Shown in pieces: positions 503-20,351 of a DNA stretch of 20,351 bases. Both the position numbers and the translations under genes were made by a program. The number at the start of each line of letters is the position of its first letter. Positions within the stretch are counted from its first letter, which is position 1. The stretch is from a virus, in the IMG/VR virus record IMGVR_UViG_3300030430_001067, positions 1 to 20,351 of that record; one strand, 5' to 3'. Below the pieces are notes generated by a model. The model searched no databases. It was not told the origin of the DNA and saw only the letters and a program-made list of their open reading frames with translations.

Positions 503-650
503 CTGGCACATGAAATGCTTGGACTGCAATCGTAAAGGTTATCTTCGAGATTTCCCGAAGAAGTGTCCGTCATGCGGCTCTGGGTCACTGCTGATTACAG
601 ATTTGAGGTTTAGAAAAAGGGAACAAGAGGACAAAAAATGCGAATCGTGA
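495..650 (+). CDS. Zinc-ribbon mini-protein, two CxxC knuckles
   Basis: A 51-aa frame from ATG 495 to TGA 648-650. It has KCLDC at residues 7-11 and KCPSC at 23-27, that is C8-x2-C11 and C24-x2-C27, the spacing of a rubredoxin or zinc-ribbon knuckle pair separated by 12 residues. The C-terminal half is basic and charged (an RFRKREQEDKK-like stretch), which suits a nucleic-acid or protein contact; that role is inference. It overlaps the upstream gene by 8 bases and the downstream gene by 13, so it fits a tight coupled run. An internal ATG at 510 is an alternative start that keeps all four Cys. No Shine-Dalgarno is obvious. The four well-placed cysteines and the overlaps are the reason to call a gene this short. 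Confidence 0.75.
   Translation: MDNWHMKCLDCNRKGYLRDFPKKCPSCGSGSLLITDLRFRKREQEDKKCES
625..630 (+). promoter_or_regulatory. Shine-Dalgarno for the 638 gene
   Basis: AAGAGG lies 7 bases upstream of ATG 638, inside the 3' end of the zinc-ribbon gene. It is the only convincing ribosome binding site in the plus-strand block and fixes the start of the small exported protein. Confidence 0.7.
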
Positions 651-823
651 CGTGGATTATTCTTTTGGCGGCAACGGTGCTGGCGCACTCGCACGTCCAT
701 CAGTGGCGTTTGGTTGACCAGTACATCAACGAAGATGGCGATACCGTGTGTTCTTGGTTATGCGACTACACTGGGCTTGAATACAGGATAGAGACAATCG
801 GCTGCTGGAATCCCAACGATTAG
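638..823 (+). CDS. Small exported Cys-containing protein
   Basis: 61 aa. Residues 1-17 form a signal-peptide-like segment: a short basic start (MR), a hydrophobic core about residues 3-14, and LAHS before a plausible cleavage site. The mature part is about 43 aa with three cysteines (C38, C42, C56), many aromatics and a VCSWLC motif. This suggests a periplasmic mini-protein with one possible disulfide. Small secreted Cys proteins of this look occur in marine phages, with unknown function; superinfection exclusion or envelope interference are guesses. The start is well supported by AAGAGG 7 bases upstream. It overlaps the zinc-ribbon gene by 13 bases. It is the last plus-strand gene, and its TAG (821-823) overlaps the convergent TAA of the giant late gene. 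Confidence 0.75.
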   Translation: MRIVTWIILLAATVLAHSHVHQWRLVDQYINEDGDTVCSWLCDYTGLEYRIETIGCWNPND

Positions 824-827
824 TTGG
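813..827. terminator. Small inverted repeat at the convergent gene junction, possible weak bidirectional terminator
   Basis: CCAAC (813-817), loop GATTA (818-822), GTTGG (823-827): a perfect 5-bp stem with a 5-base loop. The stop codons of the two converging genes (TAG at 821-823 and, on the other strand, TAA at 822-820) lie in or at the edge of the loop. No T-tract follows on either strand and the stem is short, so intrinsic termination would be weak; chance is a real alternative. Confidence 0.3.
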
Positions 828-3800
828 CTATCGCTCTAAGCCTTGATCCGACATCGATTGTGGGAAGATCAGCTAATTTGTATAGCTCTGGCACAACATC
901 CAATACATAACGCTCGCGCAGATTAATCTCACGAACTAAGCGTTGTTTCTCTTCTGGCGTTATATCTCGTCGCATGACTGCTTCTCTCTCTTTTCTGAGA
1001 GCAGACAGATCTCTACGCACACGGTCTACGTCACGCTTCATACTGAGAAGATTCTCTCTACCAGCAGTAAATCGCTCCAGTTCTTCTAGTCTGCCAGCGT
1101 TGGCTAGGTCATTGTAACTATTGTAGAAACGGTTGATGTAGTTACTCATTTCGTAAAATCGTTCTTTCTCTGCACCACCGAACTCGTTTGTGAAGAACCT
1201 TTTGATAACAGGATATTCTCTGATCCTCATCGCAGGCATCACTGCTTGATTGTCGCCTTGCAGTTCCTTACTTCTCAAAACCAAGTCGCTCGTATCTAAC
1301 AAATAAGAACCTATCGTGCCGGTGTATCCTCGAATCAAATAGTCCGTCTTGATTGGACTCACGCCCAAGGTCTGGCCTATGAGCTTTGCTAACTCACTGG
1401 TGCCGATAGTTTCTTGAAACTCTTGTGCGTCTCCCTGATCAATAAACACAGGCGTTATAGGTCTGCCTCTGTATGCACTGTAGTTTGCGAGAACCTCAAT
1501 AGCAGGAGCCACCGCCTGTACCCCGAACGGGTTGATCTCTAAGGTGCTCACTATCCCTCTGCCTAGAGAAGCAGCGGTCTCTCTTGCTGTCGCGTCATCT
1601 GTCGCGTATCTCAGTATTCTTTCAGGAATAGTTTTGAATAACAGGCCAACCTCAAACGGTATTGGGTATCTGAACGCAACACCGTCAGGGCCAGGGACAA
1701 TCCAGAAATTATCTTTGATCTCTTCTGTTTGCTCTTTGTACTGCTCATCATCGCTGACCATCATGTAGTACATGGCAGTTACTGCGGCTATCGTGGAGCC
1801 GCGCATGATAAAAGAACGCGCCGCCTGACCGCGATCTAGATTCTTGTTGGCGTTTCTCTTGCCCCGAGCAGCGTTCAACAGCAAGTCCAAGCCCTGAAGC
1901 CTAGCATTCAAGAAAGGTATAGCCGTTGTTAGCAGACGCATCACAGGATGACTGCCTCGGCGACCAAAGTTCATAACCTCTTTTGCTTGGAAGACCGCTT
2001 CCGCTTCATCCCCTGTACGAGCGAGAACATCGTCGTACACCGCCTTTCTAGTTGCGAAGTCTGATCTGGTGGTCACGTCACCCATAAAGTTCCACAACCC
2101 GATAAAAGGTTTGGCAACCCCAAGTGTGGTGTCTTGTACGAAACCGCGCTCTTTAAGAAGATTATTAAGATACTTGCCGATGTCTTTTGGATCTTTGGAG
2201 TAGTCATAGCCACCGACAACGCCGGTTCTTTCTAGATCCGTCATGTCCTCAGTGAAACCTTTTAAGGTGCTTGCCACTGGAACGAAGTTAGCGCCAGACG
2301 TTACATAGGCAGATAACGTATCTCGCATCATGTTGGCTAGGATAAACCCAGGCTCTCTTGTGACCATCTCCCTTAGTAGGTTTGCCGGTGCTCCAAGAAC
2401 AGTCTCCAGTATGTCGAAACCGTTGCCTCCGGCGAGTGGCTGCAATGATTGATAGACAAGTGGGTCTTCTATCGTAAATTTACGATCTTTCCCGTTTACC
2501 CTGAAGCTCACCGTAGGTCTACCGTCTACAGCTTCCCCTTGGGGTATCTCGCTACTCATACCGTAACGAACCATGTTTCTAACAACACGCTGCTGGGCAA
2601 CGTTCTTCATGCCCATATCAATCGCGGCATTTAGATTCATAACAACTGCATCAAGCAACGGTACGTTAAGCTGTTTTTCGCTGCCTGTTATCGGCTTGAA
2701 GGTAGATACAGATGTGAGGTTGTTGAACATATTCGGTATGCTCGTTAAATCCTCACCCATAGCCTGTCTATAGAACGGGACATAATCTGATTTAGCGGCC
2801 CAGATCTCAGCCATTTCTTCTGTTAGAACACCAGTATCCCGCAAGAACTTGATCGTGTTTCTATTGTAGGACTGCCAAGCGTCATACCAGTCCTTGATGA
2901 TTGAGTTTCCGTTTTCATCAAGATACTGCTCTGCATGCTCGATCACTAATCTGTGCTGCTCTGGTGTGCCTGGCGAGTCAATGCCTCTGGCCCTCAAGCC
3001 TTGCGCTCTTTTAGCTATCGCATACGCCTGTGCGTCTTCCTCAAGAGAACCATGTTCCTTGGTGAACAACATGCCCATAACATCTATCAAGCCACCAAAC
3101 TTCACGGTCTCACCCGCTCTGTCAGAGTTCTCAGTAAACGTGTGCTCGAAATCTACGACTTTGGTCAGACCATTTTCGTATACAGGCACACCGTTTGCGA
3201 TGGCTTGTGCAGCTATTGCGTTCGATCTATCCGCTGCCATGAGCGCGGGTATCGCCGCCGAACTAGCCAGCACGTCCCTATCGAACTTATTCTCATACGC
3301 CTCTATCTGTGCGTACTGAAAAATAGCGCCCTGCTTTGCTCTGGTCAGGAGTTGATCTATCGGCCCTTGATCTAAAGCGTTGAGATAGGTATCGCCCGGA
3401 GTCTCATCCTCTGGGTTAGCGATGAGCATGTTATCCATAGCAGACTGCACATACTCTGGACGCTCTGGCGCATTTGCTCGAGAGAACATCGCTCTTTCTT
3501 CCGGCGGCAGCACTGCACCTCTTTCTGGGTCAGCGGCTACAGCTTGAGCGTATGGGTCTGCTGATGGATTGAACTTAGGGACAAAGCCGGTTGGTGCGTT
3601 CTCGGCAGTGGATATGTTTTGCTCTACTACCTCTTTGACCTTGCCCTCTGGAATACGTTTAGATTCTAGCCTCGGCGCTGCTCTGCTAAACGCTGGGCCT
3701 TCTTCTTGGCGGTCAACTGTTGCAGTCTCTGGACGAACAACTCCATCTTGCCTTCTGGCACTTGGCTGATCATCGTCGGCTCGCTTTCTGTCTGCGTCCC

Positions 3801-6800
3801 TGAGTGCTTTTTCAACCCTTCCACGAGGTACTCCTTCTTTATCAGCAAGGATCTCTGCTGCGTCAAGATAGTCGTTATCAGAGCCTCGACCGGGTTGGAC
3901 ACCCAGCGCCCTGAACAACTGCTTCTCAGGATACCACATCAGCGCCTGAAAGTCGGCAGTCGTTATGTCGTAGCCTTGATCTCTCAGTCTCTCTCTAGCA
4001 GCCTCTACAACCTCACGCATGTAAGCTCTCTCTACAACGCCCTTTGGCGTTGCCTGAAGCTGCGGTGCCATGTTCTTTACATAGGTTCCAGTCTTCTTGA
4101 AGATCTCTGGCTTGACGTGATTTACGCCCTTTTCAGCTTTGTATTCTTTGTAGAACCTTTGGTATCGGCGCTCGACATCCCGAATAAACTCATCGAATAG
4201 CTGGGGGTCTTGATAAACCTCAGTGCGTGTTTGATCGTTGCCCTTGAGAACTTCATTAATCAGCTTGCGAGGCAGTCCACCAGTCTTCTTTACCAGAGTC
4301 TTCAGTTCGTTTCGACGCTCTACCCTTGCCTCATCGCCCAAGCCATCTGTGAACGGCCTACCGATGGCTCGGTTCCACATACGCATCCACCAGATATCCA
4401 TAGTCAACGGATCGTAGTTGCCTCGGATATTCTGATAAAAGCCTTGGCCTATCTTTGGCCCAAGGATGTAGCTGCCTTTGACAACCACATCAGCACCTTC
4501 TGCGCTGGGCACCTTGATAGCTTCAAATCCAACTTCAGCATTGAAGTCATCAGCGAAAGCAGAAAGCTCCCTGACTGTGAAGTCCTCGTCTAGAAAGTCC
4601 CTAATGGCTTGGTTCTGACCGCTCTTGCTAAACTCATTGTGGAACTTAAACGCTTCCAACATGGCGGCATTGCGCTCACCACCTTTGTTGAATTCTTTCG
4701 TATTTTCTGGAAAGCGACCGTTCTTCATGTGATATCTAAAGATATCTGTCGCCATCTCAAAGTTATCCACAACCGCCTGTCCGTTTGACGTGACGGCAAG
4801 ACCAAAATCAAACACCGCCTCTGTATCAGGCGACTGCATAATCTGCGGCTCGACAAGTTGCATGACAGCCTTTGCTGCTTTTATCTTGCTGTCATACCAG
4901 CCAATCGCATTCGCATCGTTCTCAAGGGCTACCAGAGCCTCTGTGGCGAGCATGTCTGACAATATGTCGATGTTCTCTGGAATGTACTCAAACGGCTCTG
5001 TGCGGCCTGTAGCGTTCTGCCAGCGGTCTTGTAAGAACTGTGCAGCCTCAACAAGCGTTCTCTTCTGCTGCGGTTTGTAGGTGTTGTCTTTCATCTGCTT
5101 CAACTCTTCCTGAGTCGGTAACAGATTCGTGTTAGTCATCCCTATTTGGGCTGCTTGGCCCATAGGACTTAGAGGTGCAGTTCTAGAGAAAACAAAGTCT
5201 GCCATGCGAGGCTGACCCAAACGTCCCTCTTCCTCTGTTCCTGTCGTTGTTGAGGTGGGTGTTCTGACGGTGCCTGTAGGAGCATAAGAAGCCAGACCGG
5301 CCCGACGTTCCGTTAGTTGTAACGTCCTGACATCGCGTGATCTGGCACCTATTCTGCCGGTGCTGATGTCCTGAATAATAGAATCGAATGATGTGAAGCC
5401 AGAGCCGTCCAAGGCGCTTTTTAGCTTCACCATGAACTGTCTGATTCTGTTTAGTAGTGCTCTTGGCTTTCCAGCGACAATCTTTGGATTAGCTCTTTGA
5501 TCTCTTACTAGCTCAGCAATAGCCTCTTCATTCTGCTGAACAGGGTTTAGTTCCTTGTAGTTTTCTCTGGCCCAATTGAGATAGGTTTGATTGCCAGACT
5601 TCTTGAGTTCCTTCGCTTTCTTGCTAAGTAGATTCCATTCTTTCACCTTGAAGAGATCCATCATCCTCATGGCGTGAACGCTTTCATGGTTCAGCGTACT
5701 GATGAGAGCGGCCTCGACTTGCTCTTCAGTCATTGACGGATCTGTTTTCACCGCGTCAACAGACAAAAAGATCCTGTTGAGATCTGGAGAAAAGTATCCT
5801 TGACTTACTAGGCCAGCGGCTTTGCCCTCTGGATCAGCCTCCTCTTGGCGAACAAACGTGCGAGACCCTAGATCACCACCGACAACATCTTCTCGCGCAA
5901 CCTCTTCGCCTGGTTGTCGCGGCCTGATGCCATAAACAACATTACCATCAGCGTCTCTTGATGATGATCGGAGAGCGTAGTCCACATTTACAGGGACATC
6001 TGAAAGGCCCAAGCCCTTCATCTCGCGCTCCATAGCTGCTCGAAAGCGATCTAGTGCAGCTTCATCTACAGGGGCAGGCGAAGGCAGTAGTGCGACTGGT
6101 GCCGTCTGCTCAGGAACGCCTTGGGCTTGAACGTCTGAGATAACCTGATTGGCTGAGTCAAGATCAGTGATACCCGACTCTTCAGCCACTGTCACTGCGC
6201 TTGCATTAGGGTCTCTTTGAAGGGTTTCGACCGCTTTCTTGAACTGATAGCCAGTGTATGGCTTGAGCTTGAATACAGGCAGCTTGGTTGGAGAATCGAA
6301 TCTTGGCAGAGAGCGGAGCTTTTGCGCGAATAGCTTGAACTCACCCTCTGTCATCTGACTGAGGTTTGTGTCTGGAGCAACCCCAGCAAAACGCTCAGCG
6401 AGATACTTCAACTCTGGGGAGTCTATTGGCGATGTAATGTTTTTTGCGTCTAGTACGTTTTGCAAAAACTGCCTAGAGACAAACTTATCTCTGTAGACGG
6501 ATTCATCTACACGACCAATGCCTGTGTTTGCGTTGGCTTTATTGGCAAATGCTTGAGCTTCGCCTGCATTCCTGCCAAACGGCACGATGCGAGGCATGTT
6601 TTTCTTGGGTCTGCCGGTTTCTAGGTAGGCTTGTTTTTCTTGAGGATTTAGTTTTCTGCCTCGAATAACCTCGCCTGCACTGCTGACCACAACATAGTTG
6701 GGCACTGTAGCATTGCGCTTGCGCCTGTCTTCCACACGATAGCTTTCTGTCTCTGGCAGACCATTGACGCGAGTGTCTGTCAGATTAACTAGCTTGTCGC

Positions 6801-8475
6801 CTAAAACATCTTTGGCTTCTTGTAACGTGAAGTTGTTCGATGCGGTTTTGCCGTCTTGAAGTCGTTGACGGTTGATCTTCTGTGAGGCCGTCATTCTTGC
6901 TTCTTGACGCACCCCCGCACGAACATCTCGGATAACGTCTTCTAGCTTTTCGCCCTCGTAGAATCCTCTGTCGAATGTGGTTTCTGCGGCACTGTCTATC
7001 GCAGCGGATGTGAAGGTTTGTGCATCGGGGTCATTTGCCGCAAAGTTATAGCGTTGCAGGGTTTTCTTTTGGTCATCAGAATACATTTCTGGTGACGACT
7101 GAATGACTGCGTCACCACCGTTGTAGACGGAGTCAACCTCCACTTGCTTATTGAGAGCAGAAGCTAACGCCGCTGCCCGACCTTGAGTTTCTGACGGCTC
7201 TGCGTATGTGTAACCTTCAGAATCAATTACTTGATAACGCTTTATTCCGTCTTGCCCGACAGGCTCAGATCGAACACTGAAAGACGAGTTAGCTGATGGG
7301 AAATAAATCCCCATTAACTGCTTTATGCCTGAGGCAGTTTCATCAACAGGCGCTTGCTCGCCTATAGGCAACTGGCCTATACGCTCTCTTACAACACGAA
7401 ACCTTTCTTCCTCAGCCGTGGGCGCATTTTCGCGCTCTTGTCTCAACGTCTCTTGGAATGCTTGATCTAGCTCAAGGTCTGCTGACAGAGCCTCTGATCT
7501 TGCTTGTATGTTCTTTTCGTTCTGCTCTAGCTTGGCTTTTTCTTTCTCTAGCTGAGCATCGAAAGACGCTTTGTTTCTGCGTCCTGCTATGGCATTCACT
7601 ACCAAGTCTGCGCCAGCACCGACTGCACCACCGATAGTTAGATCGTCATACAAGTTGCCACCCAGCAACTCCAACTGCTCGTTGTAAACACCCTTCTCAA
7701 TGGCATTCTGGGCGATAGTTGCGCTAACTTCTTGGATGGCCTCTAGCGATCCGCTTCTCAAGGCAGACTTGAGTAGTTCCGTAGCACCAACAGGGAGCTT
7801 TTCTAGCGCATCTGGGTTTAGACGCTTGAGCAGTGTTGCTGGCAGTGCCAACTCGGACAAACCGACGAAGCCACCACTAACAATCGAGAGATCTTCTTGG
7901 TTTTCACTGACATCTATACCGGCATCTCTTGCAGCCTGTATACGTTGAGCCTGATCCCCAGCGCCAGCACCAGCGGCTAAGGTGCCACCAGCCACGGCTT
8001 CTGCCGCCCCCATACCACCTAGCGCGGCAACAGGTTTGCCTGCCAAACCAGCAAGTCTCAACGCTCCGGCAGGCGTAAAGAATGAAGCTAAAGAACCTAC
8101 ACCTTCTCCGAACTTTGTTAGCCAGGTATCTTGGTAGGCTTGATCAGCACCCATGTACTCATCGATTGCCTTTCTACCCTCGCGTGATGCAGCGACGAGA
8201 GCATTGTCATCACCACTATCAATGACATCTTCCAGACCAACAACGTTTGTAGCTGCGTCAGCAAGCTCTGCTAAACCCTCGCCAGCAGACAAGAAGGTGT
8301 TTGCAAACCCTCGAGGTATGGCTTTGAGCGTTTCTCCTGCCTGACCGAGTGCAGTGCGCTGATCAGCAAACTGATCAATGCCGAGAACCTCATTAACCGC
8401 CCTCTGAATTACATCATCGTCAGTTCCATCAGGGAACTGTAATGTGCGTCCATCAGGAAGTTTCGCTCGAATCAT
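820..8475 (-). CDS. Giant LPD38-type large polyvalent virion protein
   Basis: 2551 aa, the dominant gene of the window. Architecture seen: an N-terminal small motif (about 5-32, with FPDGT and DDVIQRAV) common at the start of phage polyvalent and internal proteins; Gly/Ala-rich amphipathic segments about 125-300; coiled coil 301-375; mixed alpha/beta region to about 800; an HExxH metallopeptidase-like module about 826-1030 (HESVH at 930-934); a conserved unknown region about 1100-1370; charged linkers; a region about 1700-1900; an LPD38-like region about 2030-2250 with one hydrophobic helix at 2221-2240; and a C-terminal coiled coil about 2440-2530. FSR tripeptides sit at 1096, 1596 and 1664. 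Large polyvalent proteins are known to be packaged in capsids and delivered into the host. Being last in the late operon, after other repeat-rich virion-type proteins, fits an ejected internal protein. Start ATG is in a TAATG overlap, with an AAGG-containing site upstream. Confidence 0.85.
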   Translation of the reverse strand: MIRAKLPDGRTLQFPDGTDDDVIQRAVNEVLGIDQFADQRTALGQAGETLKAIPRGFANTFLSAGEGLAELADAATNVVGLEDVIDSGDDNALVAASREGRKAIDEYMGADQAYQDTWLTKFGEGVGSLASFFTPAGALRLAGLAGKPVAALGGMGAAEAVAGGTLAAGAGAGDQAQRIQAARDAGIDVSENQEDLSIVSGGFVGLSELALPATLLKRLNPDALEKLPVGATELLKSALRSGSLEAIQEVSATIAQNAIEKGVYNEQLELLGGNLYDDLTIGGAVGAGADLVVNAIAGRRNKASFDAQLEKEKAKLEQNEKNIQARSEALSADLELDQAFQETLRQERENAPTAEEERFRVVRERIGQLPIGEQAPVDETASGIKQLMGIYFPSANSSFSVRSEPVGQDGIKRYQVIDSEGYTYAEPSETQGRAAALASALNKQVEVDSVYNGGDAVIQSSPEMYSDDQKKTLQRYNFAANDPDAQTFTSAAIDSAAETTFDRGFYEGEKLEDVIRDVRAGVRQEARMTASQKINRQRLQDGKTASNNFTLQEAKDVLGDKLVNLTDTRVNGLPETESYRVEDRRKRNATVPNYVVVSSAGEVIRGRKLNPQEKQAYLETGRPKKNMPRIVPFGRNAGEAQAFANKANANTGIGRVDESVYRDKFVSRQFLQNVLDAKNITSPIDSPELKYLAERFAGVAPDTNLSQMTEGEFKLFAQKLRSLPRFDSPTKLPVFKLKPYTGYQFKKAVETLQRDPNASAVTVAEESGITDLDSANQVISDVQAQGVPEQTAPVALLPSPAPVDEAALDRFRAAMEREMKGLGLSDVPVNVDYALRSSSRDADGNVVYGIRPRQPGEEVAREDVVGGDLGSRTFVRQEEADPEGKAAGLVSQGYFSPDLNRIFLSVDAVKTDPSMTEEQVEAALISTLNHESVHAMRMMDLFKVKEWNLLSKKAKELKKSGNQTYLNWARENYKELNPVQQNEEAIAELVRDQRANPKIVAGKPRALLNRIRQFMVKLKSALDGSGFTSFDSIIQDISTGRIGARSRDVRTLQLTERRAGLASYAPTGTVRTPTSTTTGTEEEGRLGQPRMADFVFSRTAPLSPMGQAAQIGMTNTNLLPTQEELKQMKDNTYKPQQKRTLVEAAQFLQDRWQNATGRTEPFEYIPENIDILSDMLATEALVALENDANAIGWYDSKIKAAKAVMQLVEPQIMQSPDTEAVFDFGLAVTSNGQAVVDNFEMATDIFRYHMKNGRFPENTKEFNKGGERNAAMLEAFKFHNEFSKSGQNQAIRDFLDEDFTVRELSAFADDFNAEVGFEAIKVPSAEGADVVVKGSYILGPKIGQGFYQNIRGNYDPLTMDIWWMRMWNRAIGRPFTDGLGDEARVERRNELKTLVKKTGGLPRKLINEVLKGNDQTRTEVYQDPQLFDEFIRDVERRYQRFYKEYKAEKGVNHVKPEIFKKTGTYVKNMAPQLQATPKGVVERAYMREVVEAARERLRDQGYDITTADFQALMWYPEKQLFRALGVQPGRGSDNDYLDAAEILADKEGVPRGRVEKALRDADRKRADDDQPSARRQDGVVRPETATVDRQEEGPAFSRAAPRLESKRIPEGKVKEVVEQNISTAENAPTGFVPKFNPSADPYAQAVAADPERGAVLPPEERAMFSRANAPERPEYVQSAMDNMLIANPEDETPGDTYLNALDQGPIDQLLTRAKQGAIFQYAQIEAYENKFDRDVLASSAAIPALMAADRSNAIAAQAIANGVPVYENGLTKVVDFEHTFTENSDRAGETVKFGGLIDVMGMLFTKEHGSLEEDAQAYAIAKRAQGLRARGIDSPGTPEQHRLVIEHAEQYLDENGNSIIKDWYDAWQSYNRNTIKFLRDTGVLTEEMAEIWAAKSDYVPFYRQAMGEDLTSIPNMFNNLTSVSTFKPITGSEKQLNVPLLDAVVMNLNAAIDMGMKNVAQQRVVRNMVRYGMSSEIPQGEAVDGRPTVSFRVNGKDRKFTIEDPLVYQSLQPLAGGNGFDILETVLGAPANLLREMVTREPGFILANMMRDTLSAYVTSGANFVPVASTLKGFTEDMTDLERTGVVGGYDYSKDPKDIGKYLNNLLKERGFVQDTTLGVAKPFIGLWNFMGDVTTRSDFATRKAVYDDVLARTGDEAEAVFQAKEVMNFGRRGSHPVMRLLTTAIPFLNARLQGLDLLLNAARGKRNANKNLDRGQAARSFIMRGSTIAAVTAMYYMMVSDDEQYKEQTEEIKDNFWIVPGPDGVAFRYPIPFEVGLLFKTIPERILRYATDDATARETAASLGRGIVSTLEINPFGVQAVAPAIEVLANYSAYRGRPITPVFIDQGDAQEFQETIGTSELAKLIGQTLGVSPIKTDYLIRGYTGTIGSYLLDTSDLVLRSKELQGDNQAVMPAMRIREYPVIKRFFTNEFGGAEKERFYEMSNYINRFYNSYNDLANAGRLEELERFTAGRENLLSMKRDVDRVRRDLSALRKEREAVMRRDITPEEKQRLVREINLRERYVLDVVPELYKLADLPTIDVGSRLRAIAN
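1726..2388 (-). other. LPD38-like domain region
   Basis: Residues about 2030-2250. The order of blocks (a REPGFILANMMRD-like stretch, a GDVTTRSDFATRKAVYD-like stretch, then NFGRRG, then an AIPFLNARLQG-like stretch) matches what I recognise as the large polyvalent protein associated domain 38 from phage giant proteins. A hydrophobic helix follows at 2221-2240. The domain has no known activity; membrane association during genome entry is one possibility. Confidence 0.55.
5386..6000 (-). other. HExxH metallopeptidase-like module inside the giant protein
   Basis: Residues about 826-1030. The sequence holds HESVH at 930-934 (bases 5674-5688), preceded by a hydrophobic helix and followed about 50 residues later by EEAIAELV (983-990), which offers Glu candidates for the third zinc ligand. 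HExxH followed by a downstream Glu helix is the gluzincin-type layout. Upstream strands such as RIFLSVDAV fit the edge strand of such folds. Protease activity is inference; phage polyvalent proteins often carry peptidase-like domains. Confidence 0.6.
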
Positions 8476-13264: not shown

Positions 13265-15270
13265 GCAGGCAAAGCTCCTCCTGCCATAGCACCGAGAGGT
13301 GCGGGTTGTTTAGTGGTGCCAGTGCGCTCTTGCCGCACCCGATCCATCATACCCTCAAGCTCTTGCACACCAGCATTGGTGTCACCGTCTCCGATGCCAG
13401 ACACAACATCAGCAGGCACGATAAACTCACCCGGAGAAACCGCTACGGGCTGAGAGTCTCCAATCATCCCCTGCACTTGATCATCCATGCCACCGCCTTG
13501 GCCGGTAATCACGCCCTCTTTTTGTGAGTTAGGGACAACGGATTCGAGAACCTGTGATCGCAGCATTTGGAAAGCTTCCGATCCGAACTCATCTATGAAT
13601 CGATTGATCACGGCCTCTGACTCTTCTTCAGACAATCTGCCGAGCAGCGCCATAGAGACCTGCTCTATCAAGCGCATTGCTGCTTGTTGATTCATCTCCG
13701 TTCCGCCACCTTCCTGCATCCTTGTGGCGTATTGAGAACCGTAGGTAGCATCCATGATGTCATCGAAGTAATCCTGATCACCTTCAAACTCGCCAGCCTC
13801 ATATGCATCAACTATCTTCTGTGCCTCACGTCTCCTTCTGCTTATCCCCCTTTTGGGAGCGCGACCCTCAAGAACTCTTTGTGCCCTTCTGACCTCTGCC
13901 GGAACTGAACGAGCCATCCCCGTGCCACCAGCTTTACCGATGCCACCTATGCCTTGCATTAAAGCGGGATCGATTTGTGGTGTGGTGCCCGGAGCCGGAG
14001 TTCCTGGTGTTGGCACACCTGTCTGATCTGATGTCACGAAAGGACTTCTGAAGTAACTAATTTCTGGGTCGAAGCCCGGCCTATAATTCATAGGCAACTC
14101 GCTTGGAGTCTTTACTGGGCCGCGCAAACTAGCTTGTCTTGCAACAATCTGTGCTGGTCGTAGAGCACGATTAACATCGATGTCTCTTATGTCGCCACCA
14201 TATCTCATCTGCATAGGCTCTCTGCCCATCATCTGCAACTCGTTGTATCGTCGCTGGAAGTCAGAGGGGTTAACGGATGTGATGCCGCCTTGTGCCGCAT
14301 ACTGTGCGCCGTAGTTTAAGCCATAGTCAGATGCCACCTGTCCCGTTGCAGTGGTCAGTATGTCTCTTGACCGTCTTAAATCTTCTTCTCTATCAGCAGC
14401 CTGTCTGCCGAACATACGATCACGTTCTTCTTGGGCTTCAATCGCGGCTCGCTGTCCTTCTCCTATTGCAATAGGGGCAGCAACGGCAGGAGATAGCAAA
14501 GCTTTCCCTGCTTCCATAGCAAATTTTCCTGGATCACTTCTAAAAGAATCCAAGACATTTCGTCTCGCAACATCTGTAGCAGAGGAAAGACCTCTTTGGG
14601 CCATTTCAATTTGGCTGGGCATCGGAGGCCCAGCTTGTCCAGCAGGCAAAACTTGAGGCGAACTTAAATCTGCTATTGTTTTTTGAGAGGCTTGCATTTT
14701 TGCAAGTTGCTGAGCGTACTCTGGGCTAGCCTTATCAAGCGCCATCATGGCTTTTTGTGAAGCATCTAACGCTTTTTCTGCCCCAGACAAAGTACCTGTT
14801 AGATCAGATACCGTTTCAGTCGCTGAAAGAACATCTGGGCTAGTTGCAATGGAGGCGGCTTGTGCGGCCTTATCAACTCCTACCGATGTCACTGATGACG
14901 TTAAAGCTTTTGTGGGATCGAAGTCTTCTCCTGTCGCTAAAGAGCGTATACCCTCGGCAGCGACCCCTTTAATACCCGCGCCAAGAGCTGTTTTTACAAG
15001 TCCTGCTTGAAGCCCACTAAGCAAAGAACTGCTTATTGCTCCGCCTACTACATTGCCTAATAAAGGGGCTAACAAAGCTGGCAAGAACGCTTCAGGCTGT
15101 CCAGTCATCGGGTTGGTTGTAAGCTTCCCTGTGGGCGACAGAGAGGCAATACCAGCCACTTCTATCGGGTTCATGTGTACCATCATGCTGTCGCCGAAAC
15201 GGCCTTGCTGGGCCATCTGATCAGCCATGGCTTTCATGGGCGGTTGTGGCATTGGGTTTTGATACATCAT
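13261..15270 (-). CDS. 669-aa virion-type protein with GEFIVPADVVS C-terminal module
   Basis: The N-terminus (about 20-65) has GDSMMVHMNPIEVAGIASLSP and TNPMTGQPEAFLP, conserved in phage structural proteins of this type. Residues about 63-135 are Gly/Ala/Leu rich with two hydrophobic helices (about 65-105) that could insert in or contact a membrane. A helical region (150-310) and a flexible Pro/Gly region (400-450) follow, then an Arg-rich patch with RRRR (478-481). The C-terminal module (about 590-646) contains GGGMDDQVQGMIG, PVAVSPGEFIVPADVVSGIG and MMDRVR, a motif set that recurs in large tail and injection proteins of many phages. Short GGI/GGD turns occur at 328, 358 and 521. Function is not known; place and hydrophobic helices suggest a neck, tail or ejection role. 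ATG-ATG start in a TAATG overlap, with GGAG upstream. Confidence 0.72.
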   Translation of the reverse strand: MMYQNPMPQPPMKAMADQMAQQGRFGDSMMVHMNPIEVAGIASLSPTGKLTTNPMTGQPEAFLPALLAPLLGNVVGGAISSSLLSGLQAGLVKTALGAGIKGVAAEGIRSLATGEDFDPTKALTSSVTSVGVDKAAQAASIATSPDVLSATETVSDLTGTLSGAEKALDASQKAMMALDKASPEYAQQLAKMQASQKTIADLSSPQVLPAGQAGPPMPSQIEMAQRGLSSATDVARRNVLDSFRSDPGKFAMEAGKALLSPAVAAPIAIGEGQRAAIEAQEERDRMFGRQAADREEDLRRSRDILTTATGQVASDYGLNYGAQYAAQGGITSVNPSDFQRRYNELQMMGREPMQMRYGGDIRDIDVNRALRPAQIVARQASLRGPVKTPSELPMNYRPGFDPEISYFRSPFVTSDQTGVPTPGTPAPGTTPQIDPALMQGIGGIGKAGGTGMARSVPAEVRRAQRVLEGRAPKRGISRRRREAQKIVDAYEAGEFEGDQDYFDDIMDATYGSQYATRMQEGGGTEMNQQAAMRLIEQVSMALLGRLSEEESEAVINRFIDEFGSEAFQMLRSQVLESVVPNSQKEGVITGQGGGMDDQVQGMIGDSQPVAVSPGEFIVPADVVSGIGDGDTNAGVQELEGMMDRVRQERTGTTKQPAPLGAMAGGALPA

Positions 15271-18603: not shown

Positions 18604-19022
18604 TATATATATTCTCCAGATCTAATCATTTCAGTAACACGGATAGCTCTTGTGCCAACTTGCTTCGCCCATTTGCTATCCATAAACTCATCCGCTGCAA
18701 CATCAAACTGCTCCCTGCTCATGGCAGTTAAAGCGTTAACAAACCCACGCAGTTTGGTAAGACCAAGATTAAAACAAATATCGACCATCGCATCGCGCCT
18801 AGCATCGTTCAGTCCGCCGAACCAAAAGTAAGTGTCTTGTAGCTCTTCTTGTACTCGCTTGATATCGTTTTCGAGAAGATAATCTATCTCGTCATCAGAC
18901 AATCCTAGGCCGGACTCTGAGATATTTCTGCCCACGCCTATCGTTTCGTAGCCAGCAGAGCACAAGTAAACCTTTGACTTCACGCCCTCATGGCGCTTAA
19001 TCATTTCAACTAGCTTACTCAT
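18603..19022 (-). CDS. Endolysin, T4-type lysozyme (GH24 family)
   Basis: 139 aa. Cleaves the glycan of peptidoglycan to end infection. Residues 10-33 carry RHEG, then YLCSAGYETIGVGRN, the active-site signature of phage lysozymes. Aligned to T4 lysozyme (E11, D20, T26), the residues are E12, C21 and T27 with exact E-x8-C-x5-T spacing. The Asp is therefore replaced by Cys, which is a known allowed variant of the motif. Later helices fit the family (ALTAMSREQFDVAADEFMDSKWAKQVG and a TRAIRVTEMI helix). There is no signal peptide or SAR segment, so export to the periplasm would rely on the holin next door. The protein is shorter than T4 lysozyme (164 aa) but complete. TAATG overlap with the holin. 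Confidence 0.92.
   Translation of the reverse strand: MSKLVEMIKRHEGVKSKVYLCSAGYETIGVGRNISESGLGLSDDEIDYLLENDIKRVQEELQDTYFWFGGLNDARRDAMVDICFNLGLTKLRGFVNALTAMSREQFDVAADEFMDSKWAKQVGTRAIRVTEMIRSGEYI
18614..18617 (-). promoter_or_regulatory. Shine-Dalgarno for the 319-aa gene
   Basis: GGAG (within CTGGAG) on the minus strand, 10 bases upstream of ATG 18603-18601, inside the lysozyme 3' end. It supports the start at a gene whose family I cannot recognise. Confidence 0.65.
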
Positions 19023-19399
19023 TACTTACCAACACCTTTGACCCTTTCGTAGGATCTGGCACCGCCGAGACCCAACATGCCAAGAAGTAAAGGCATCATT
19101 ACACCAGCATCCGCCTGAGGGATAACAACGCCAAACCCCGCTGCAATTGGAGCAACTAGAAAGTTGACCATCAGCCCCAGCACACAGGTGTAACCGGCTA
19201 GAGGACGCCAACTCGACTGGAACCAGTTGCCTTTAGCATCAAGCTTCAAAACCTCGATCTGCTCTAGCGCGATCTGCTGACCATGCTTTTCGGACATGGT
19301 GGCGATTTCGTGGGCCAGCTTATTCTTAGTGTCAGCGTCAGGAATAAACTTATCCAGTAAACCTGTGACTGGGCCGATTAGCTGTCCGACTAAACTCAT
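19022..19399 (-). CDS. Holin, three-TM gene-transfer-agent type
   Basis: 125 aa. The N-terminal half is soluble and amphipathic (LIGPVTGLLDKFIPD, then a charged helix to about 54). The conserved SWRPLAGYTCV motif (63-73) leads into a hydrophobic helix about 68-90; a second follows at about 99-112, then ARSYERVKGVGK. SWRP followed by two hydrophobic helices and a conserved Arg-Ser-Glu-Lys tail is the pattern of the GTA-type 3-TM holin family, whose members form membrane lesions that release endolysin. The gene lies directly upstream of lysozyme, the usual order. It starts in an ATGA overlap with the EF-hand gene and has GAGGGAG 6 bases upstream. Confidence 0.85.
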   Translation of the reverse strand: MSLVGQLIGPVTGLLDKFIPDADTKNKLAHEIATMSEKHGQQIALEQIEVLKLDAKGNWFQSSWRPLAGYTCVLGLMVNFLVAPIAAGFGVVIPQADAGVMMPLLLGMLGLGGARSYERVKGVGK

Positions 19400-19740
19400 C
19401 TACCGCTCCCTCTGTTTGACCATGCCTGCGCTCCAAAGAACGCTGCCAATATACCTGCGACCGACACAAAGTAGACTGAAGCCATATCACCTAGAATACT
19501 TGCAGCCTGAACTAGACCAGCCCAACTGCTTACCACCACTAACGATGGATACAAGAGCATTCCCCACAGAGCAAACCAACTCATACTGCGCTGAGCCTGC
19601 GCCCTTTCATTGCTGATTTTTAGCTCTTGTAGCTCTTTGCTAGTCTCTAGCTCATCATCAGTGACAACGCCGTCACCATCGGTGTCGTACTGATCGTAGT
19701 CTGATCCAGGTTCTAATTTCTTCGCTGCCATCTCAGTCAT
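19396..19740 (-). CDS. EF-hand membrane protein of the lysis cassette
   Basis: 114 aa. Residues 19-30 are a canonical 12-residue EF-hand loop: D19, D21, D23, T27 and E30 provide the calcium ligand positions, with Gly at 6. A charged helix (31-50) follows, then two membrane segments about 52-75 and 80-104, with AQRSMSWFALW leading in. Small EF-hand plus two-TM proteins of this layout are known to me from marine phages and lie near holins; their function is not established. A calcium-responsive holin regulator, pinholin-like partner or anti-holin is inference. Start ATG 19740 overlaps the upstream gene by 8 bases and lacks a Shine-Dalgarno; ATG 19731, one base after that gene's stop, is the alternative. 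The 3' end overlaps the holin start (ATGA). Confidence 0.8.
   Translation of the reverse strand: MTEMAAKKLEPGSDYDQYDTDGDGVVTDDELETSKELQELKISNERAQAQRSMSWFALWGMLLYPSLVVVSSWAGLVQAASILGDMASVYFVSVAGILAAFFGAQAWSNRGSGR
19406..19412 (-). promoter_or_regulatory. Shine-Dalgarno for the holin
   Basis: GAGGGAG on the minus strand, 6 bases upstream of ATG 19399-19397, inside the EF-hand gene. It is among the better ribosome binding sites of the late block and contrasts with the neighbouring lysis genes, which have none. Confidence 0.65.
19651..19686 (-). other. Canonical EF-hand calcium-binding loop
   Basis: Residues 19-30, with Asp at positions 1, 3 and 5, Gly at 6, Thr at 9 and Glu at 12. All side-chain ligand positions are suitable, so calcium binding is plausible. 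Only one loop is present; EF-hands normally pair, so dimerisation or weak affinity is likely. Confidence 0.8.
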
Positions 19741-19948
19741 AAAATTGTGTATTTTGCGGCACCTTTACAGGGATGCAGTAGGCTGTAATATTTTCTTGGT
19801 TGTTCAGGCGCTTGCCCTCTATGGGCTTGATAGACCCTTGTTCGAGCCAAAAAGCGAACTGATTGCACCTGTGAATGTTGCGAAAGTGAAATCTACCTGC
19901 GACTTGCTCGCCCTCGACAAGCATGACAAGCAGAAACGCCATAATCAT
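19733..19948 (-). CDS. Small conserved-looking phage protein with hydrophobic N-terminus
   Basis: 71 aa. Residues 1-11 (MIMAFLLVMLV) are hydrophobic and could be a short signal or anchor. The rest is soluble, with two cysteines (C28 in an IHRCNQFA stretch, C58 in AYCIPV) and many polar residues. Proteins of this size and pattern appear beside lysis genes in marine phages, with unknown function. Start ATG at 19948 sits in an ATGA overlap with the upstream gene and has no Shine-Dalgarno; a second ATG follows at 19942. It may be a lysis accessory in the envelope, given its place. The 3' end overlaps the EF-hand gene by 8 bases. Confidence 0.68.
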   Translation of the reverse strand: MIMAFLLVMLVEGEQVAGRFHFRNIHRCNQFAFWLEQGSIKPIEGKRLNNQENITAYCIPVKVPQNTQFYD

Positions 19949-20351
19949 CCGAAGGCTTTTAGAATCAAGACAAAGATCAAGACTGCAATGCCGCCTCCGA
20001 TGATAAGAGTCGTGCCGCCCACCAGCAGTTGTTGAATGAGGATTTGTTTTTCGCGCTTACGTTTTGCCATTAGCCTCGCGTGTGTCCTCCTGTCTTGTTC
20101 CTGCTGCCTAATTGCTTGATCGTAGTCTTCTAGCAGTTTGGGGTCTGCAACCAGGAGCAAATCCCTCAGATCTTTTTGATATCTTTCTTGGTTCCTACGA
20201 AGCATTTGTAGCTTGAGGATGTCATTCTTTGAGAGCGCATTAAACGTCGAGCTTCTACGTTGTACCTCGAAGTTGTTAAGAGCTTCTCCGAAATCAGACA
20301 CAAGAGCCATCGCTTGTTGCACGTTGGCTTTGCCTTCATTGACATTTTGAA
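19945..20351 (-). CDS. Coiled-coil protein with C-terminal TM anchor, 5' end outside the window
   Basis: The frame stays open through the right edge, so the gene is partial: bases 20323-20351 still encode residues (NVNEGKANV-like) with no ATG. A GTG at 20322 is possible but is probably internal. The visible 125+ residues are a charged helix rich in Gln, Arg and Lys with a likely coiled coil, then a strongly basic stretch (MAKRKREK), then one hydrophobic helix at the end (about the last 25 residues, GGTTLIIGGGIAVLIFVLIL). Orientation with the basic stretch before the helix puts the N-terminus in the cytoplasm. It resembles a tail-anchored membrane protein. A spanin-like role is not supported, because i-spanins anchor at the N-terminus. 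TGA overlaps the next start (ATGA). Confidence 0.7.
   Translation of the reverse strand, partial: QNVNEGKANVQQAMALVSDFGEALNNFEVQRRSSTFNALSKNDILKLQMLRRNQERYQKDLRDLLLVADPKLLEDYDQAIRQQEQDRRTHARLMAKRKREKQILIQQLLVGGTTLIIGGGIAVLIFVLILKAFG

Follow-up and report, generated by a model that had tools for sequence, protein, structure and literature searches.

In the window (the whole stretch of 20,351 nucleotides analysed here), the gene at positions 19396–19740 on the minus strand, delineated by its open reading frame, Pfam, AlphaFold2 and a family profile, encodes a membrane protein of 114 amino acids with an EF-hand loop and two transmembrane (TM) helices, below called the EF protein. It is a candidate holin-class protein of the lysis module, that is, a two-TM hairpin with cytoplasmic termini and an EF-hand loop binding Ca2+ (or Mg2+); we put the probability of this reading at about one half. 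The EF protein looks like a lysis protein itself, not a mere accessory of the GTA-type holin. The holin-class reading builds on the combination of an invariant loop under purifying selection, the predicted loop–helix–TM1 arrangement, the single copy of the gene, and the lysis-gene neighbours that recur in differing phages. No description of an EF-hand holin was found in the open-access papers searched. Judging by the sequences, the EF protein of many marine phages, usually encoded next to lysis genes, is probably a metal-binding holin-type lysis protein, new to the literature searched. Lysis timing is understood mainly from coliphages; for a control of lysis by ions in seawater, a widespread lysis protein of marine phages whose Ca2+-type site is invariant would offer a concrete candidate.

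The loop DTDGDGVVTDDE covers residues 19–30 (positions 19651–19686, minus strand) and is spelled D19-T-D21-G-D23-G-V-V-T27-D-D-E30; its assignment relies on the sequence and on the conservation of the ligands in relatives. The loop pattern has a single match across the six frames of the window, 0.007 matches being expected per shuffled window proteome, hence a chance origin can be dismissed. Taken alone, the window protein scores 17.9 bits with Pfam EF-hand_5, under the cut-off of 25.9, and the profile of the EF family (60 sequences) matches the calmodulin EF-hand with E 6e-9. With this profile similarity and a 12-residue loop having oxygen ligands at positions 1, 3, 5, 9 and 12, the protein has two marks of the EF-hand superfamily, and the complete EF-hand loop claimed in the earlier note is confirmed. 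The usual paired helix-loop-helix form was not observed, as the EF protein has one loop. The entering helix comprises only residues 14–18 in the window protein and is absent in a relative of the CRP-345 type (L180), while the exit helix is present. Thus, strictly, the element is a loop with an exit helix, or an "F-hand". A dockerin identity was considered and rejected, since dockerins need two tandem F-hand repeats and the window protein and its aligned relatives have a single loop.

The AlphaFold2 monomer model (mean pLDDT 78, pTM 0.41) consists of the short helix 14–18, the loop, a continuous helix 28–73 that includes TM1, and TM2 at residues 87–113. By the model and hydropathy taken together, TM helix 1 spans about residues 54–73 (positions 19522–19581, minus strand) and TM helix 2 about residues 87–108 (19417–19482, minus strand), so the two TM helices previously reported to follow the loop are present as two hydrophobic segments and two modelled helices. 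The CRP-345-type member, with few residues ahead of the loop, has the same modelled hairpin layout. Lysine and arginine are absent between the TM segments and present at the C-terminus, and from this distribution an N-in/C-in orientation is predicted. The EF loop is thereby predicted to lie on the cytoplasmic side, a topology derived from the sequence and from the monomer model, whose pTM is 0.41. In this orientation the EF protein would sense ions entering the cell, not seawater directly. The earlier suggestion of a response to seawater calcium across the membrane is accordingly weakened, the predicted cytoplasmic loop having no direct reading of the outside, and it would be rescued by an influx-triggered feedback. 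A search of the PDB with the model yielded nothing better than E 5, and a search of BFVD gave one viral match, an uninformative protein of 84 amino acids without a name (E 2.3e-4).

Relatives were collected from four viral-contig scans, each represented by its best 80 loci, ten phage records and two MAG contigs, so that 328 loci were analysed in addition to the window. All loop ligands are intact in 326 of the 328 complete relatives among the matches listed (320 by regular expression, the rest by eye), some search patterns of three of the four scans being located in the loop or next to it; in the best 80 loci of the A1 scan, whose search patterns lay outside the loop, it is present in 79. The ligand consensus is D1, [DN]3, [DN]5, [STD]9, E12. 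The exceptions are L117, with E12 replaced by Q, and the soil phage DLP_6, which has no loop; one further relative (L088) is truncated. Among 31 distinct close genes, pN/pS is 0.03 at the ligand codons and about 0.11 in the linker helix, the TM region and the remaining loop codons. Synonymous variation is present at the ligand codons and nonsynonymous variation is nearly absent. Hence the loop ligands are under strong purifying selection, and the loss of ligands in relatives that, according to the earlier note, would speak against its proposal does not occur.

Exactly one copy of the EF gene was found in each of the 19 genomes searched; this speaks for a single function whose gene has changed place within the late region. 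In bacterial genomes relatives were seen on two MAG contigs only, and therefore no clear host origin emerges. The loop-bearing members among the isolates infect Pelagibacter, OM43 and Roseobacter, and the cassette of the lake phage DSL-LC04 has a related gene order but no EF gene. The isolate hosts are consistent with a link of the family to seawater, and only that.

In the window, the EF gene is followed by a gene for a GTA_holin_3TM holin of 125 amino acids (19022–19399, minus strand; PF11351 E 6.4e-15, PHROG 3427 holin E 1.2e-28), and then by the endolysin, a phage lysozyme of PF00959 (18603–19022, minus strand; Pfam E 9.7e-15). The EF and holin frames have four bases in common, the ATGA stop/start overlap at 19396–19399 (minus strand), and both this overlap and the GTA-type holin as the next gene had been correctly recognised before. 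ATGA is not the sole spacing to the holin in the family: among the 65 listed loci with PF11351 next to EF, 32 have a four-base overlap and 25 a three-base gap. Directly upstream of the EF gene lies the conserved u71 (19733–19948, minus strand), encoding 71 amino acids with a hydrophobic N-terminus, and before it u125 (19945–20322, minus strand), encoding a helical protein with a C-terminal TM segment; the 5' end of the latter is cut by the contig edge, its relatives having about 154 amino acids. The u125-u71-EF-PF11351-lysozyme order is the usual one in window-type phages. The cluster of u125 and phrog_32327-like proteins is the commonest EF neighbour, with 136 members spread over most groups.

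Among the 329 loci listed, the gene after EF encodes PF11351 in 65, a tape-measure-like protein in 54, phrog_2524 in 53, a spanin2-type protein in 11, and phrog_6637 in four. The phrog_2524 family has no PHROG function; its N-terminus is related to PF11351 (hhalign 74%), and the next gene is usually an M15 endolysin. In 12 window-type loci PF11351 is absent, and an i-spanin (phrog_739) is present, followed, where the contig is long enough, by an o-spanin (phrog_812) and lysozyme; no window-type locus combines PF11351 with the spanin pair. Two loci, L063 and L069, have extra genes between the o-spanin and lysozyme, one of which, judged by its sequence, contains a radical-SAM-like cysteine motif. 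In L081, neither Pfam nor PHROGs shows a lysozyme domain in the product of the gene at 3292–3873 (CRP-207 gp73), annotated as a putative lysozyme; this product has a hydrophobic stretch at the N-terminus and resembles a coiled coil.

Viewed from the holin side, EF adjoins close relatives of the window PF11351 holin in 31 of the 72 evaluable cases (29 upstream and two with the EF match downstream). A two-TM protein of the phrog_10198 type, exemplified in phage C72C1, about 69 amino acids long and devoid of an EF hand, takes the same upstream slot in 10 of the 72, and other genes are found in the remainder. Small membrane proteins, EF among them, thus often replace one another in the slot beside the PF11351 holin. 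Hence, of the coupling to the GTA-type holin suggested earlier, the frequent adjacency stands, both among the listed EF loci and among the holin relatives, whereas an exclusive tie does not: EF also precedes phrog_2524 and phrog_6637, is kept in phages without PF11351, and resides outside lysis cassettes in many T4-like phages.

PF11351 was not found in G001–G006, CRP-207, CRP-345, HTVC008M or Melnitz, of which the last four are complete records and the virus contigs may be fragments; EF occurs without PF11351 in most records searched. Similarly, phrog_2524 was not found in G001–G004 or in the same four complete records, the positive control being detected in four of five records. Two genomes lacking both, the 50-kb G002 and the complete CRP-345, have EF ahead of the spanins and lysozyme. 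In the G002 cassette, two strong TM segments are seen only in the EF protein. The phrog_32327-type neighbour there has one strong C-terminal and a marginal N-terminal segment, and for this reason it stays an alternative holin candidate in the spanin-type genomes. In the CRP-345 cassette, two strong TM segments are seen in the EF protein and in its spanin2-type neighbour, and in no other protein. The EF protein is a small TM protein encoded with the endolysin and/or spanins, as is characteristic of the holin class, and its placement beside holins, spanins and endolysins recurs in otherwise different phages.

The same context bears on the possibility that the EF protein is dedicated to regulating the adjacent holin, as an antiholin or a trigger; it would then be a Ca2+/Mg2+ sensor in the cytoplasm, holding or releasing the PF11351 holin. 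This possibility agrees with the position of EF immediately upstream of the holin, with the pairing with three holin-like families, and with the four-base overlap, found among the loci listed in 32 of 65 cases with PF11351 and in 33 of 53 cases with phrog_2524. Two-gene holin/antiholin sets are known, including one with a PF11351 holin, TeaA of ICP1, paired with the antiholin ArrA (PMC7182436). However, a regulator should disappear along with its partner, whereas EF is kept where PF11351 and phrog_2524 are both absent and, in many T4-like loci, is not placed near a holin; moreover, close relatives of the PF11351 holin often have no EF gene. This makes the regulator doubtful, and its strict form is disfavoured, as EF should go when PF11351 goes, and it stays. 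An antiholin dedicated to PF11351, expected to occur only with that holin, was thus rejected. The T4-like phages suggest yet another function, in the virion or in tail assembly: the EF protein would be a membrane factor that helps to assemble the baseplate hub or to eject DNA, and its place near the lysis genes of small phages would be fortuitous. In HTVC008M and Melnitz, T4-like pelagi- and methylophages, EF is situated between gp51, the hub assembly catalyst, and a tape-measure-like gene; in the 54 listed loci with EF upstream of the tape measure it lies away from lysis genes, and in five window-type loci EF is directly ahead of a virion gene with no intervening lysis gene. On the other hand, gp51 is directly followed by the next large gene in cyanophage S-SM1 and in Pseudomonas phage pf16, so that EF is an insertion in T4-like phages, and a core T4-like tail or hub assembly gene was ruled out. 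In other T4-like members (L146, L157, L275, L281) EF comes just after the i-spanin and o-spanin, and the relatives that are not T4-like mostly have it among lysis genes. We regard a virion role as the least probable of the readings considered. In the Melnitz paper, no holin is named and a curli pore is proposed as a pinholin analogue (PMC9004378); the EF protein would be a holin candidate for the T4-like pelagi- and methylophages.

Under the holin-class reading, the EF protein would be a holin or co-holin accumulating in the inner membrane. Since EF hands on their own normally have to pair, metal binding may be coupled to oligomerisation of the protein. Seawater contains about 10 mM Ca2+. Divalent cations entering the cytoplasm as the membrane leaks or depolarises might promote assembly of the EF protein and sharpen triggering. 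In the window phage, it would act jointly with the co-translated PF11351 holin; in the spanin-type relatives it is perhaps the holin itself. The strongest form of this scheme, in which the EF protein is the hole-former or co-holin of many marine phages and its assembly, driven by Ca2+ entry, triggers lysis by positive feedback, seems unlikely to us, slightly more so than the dedicated regulator; if true, it would extend to the T4-like pelagi- and methylophages, where no named holin was found. A better, if still less than even, chance is given to a structural loop, with constitutively bound Ca2+ or Mg2+ stabilising the N-terminal domain of a lysis protein whose timing is independent of calcium. 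Cytoplasmic Mg2+ is abundant, the results obtained here show no regulation, positions 3 and 5 of the loop tolerate N, and position 9 varies between S, T and D, all of which would suit a site that does no sensing. Yet E12 is invariant but for one E-to-Q replacement, and an invariant E12 is expected for bidentate coordination of Ca2+ rather than Mg2+, although this leaves structural and regulatory Ca2+ unseparated. The holin-class reading has its own difficulties. In about 122 of the loci listed a separate holin-like gene adjoins EF, hence there the EF protein need not be the holin, and both the tape-measure-side loci and the many close PF11351 relatives without an EF gene count against it.

Several known systems resemble the EF protein in part. 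PF11351 holins are likewise small membrane proteins of lysis cassettes, helical and cytoplasmic in their N-terminal part and with two hydrophobic segments towards the C-terminus, but they lack the metal-binding loop, and no sequence relation to the EF protein was detected. In particular, a divergent PF11351 paralogue was rejected, since there is no Pfam match and the hhalign probability is 0.2%; with phrog_2524, hhalign shows weak similarity of TM2 alone. Class II holins such as S21 of phage 21 have two TM helices and both termini in the cytoplasm, as predicted for the EF protein, the likeness being that of predicted topology and not of sequence. S21 has no EF hand, and its partner is a SAR endolysin. 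Calmodulin EF-hands have the loop ligands and the exit helix in common with the EF protein, which differs in having one loop, a short or absent incoming helix, and a fusion to two TM helices.

The LysF1a/LysF1b pair of mycobacteriophages Girr and NBJ consists of a two-TM N-in-C-in holin-like protein and, beside it, another TM lysis protein; efficient lysis requires both, and LysF1a does not act purely as an antiholin (PMC13056207). A two-TM N-in-C-in member is thus common to this pair and to the EF system, where the topology is predicted. LysF1a is shorter than the EF protein, acts in Gram-positive hosts, and is described without an EF-hand or calcium (PMC13056207). A phage lysis protein with an EF-hand-like calcium site is the endolysin LysGH15 (PMC4022735), its site being located in the enzyme, whereas the loop described here is in a membrane protein.

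Two other genes of the window deserve mention. The one at 638–823 (plus strand) encodes a protein of 61 amino acids, hydrophobic over an N-terminal stretch, with cysteine and tryptophan residues that look conserved, and G002 has a similar open reading frame at 13854–14039. The gene at 820–8475 (minus strand) encodes a protein of 2551 amino acids with an LPD38 domain close to the C-terminus.
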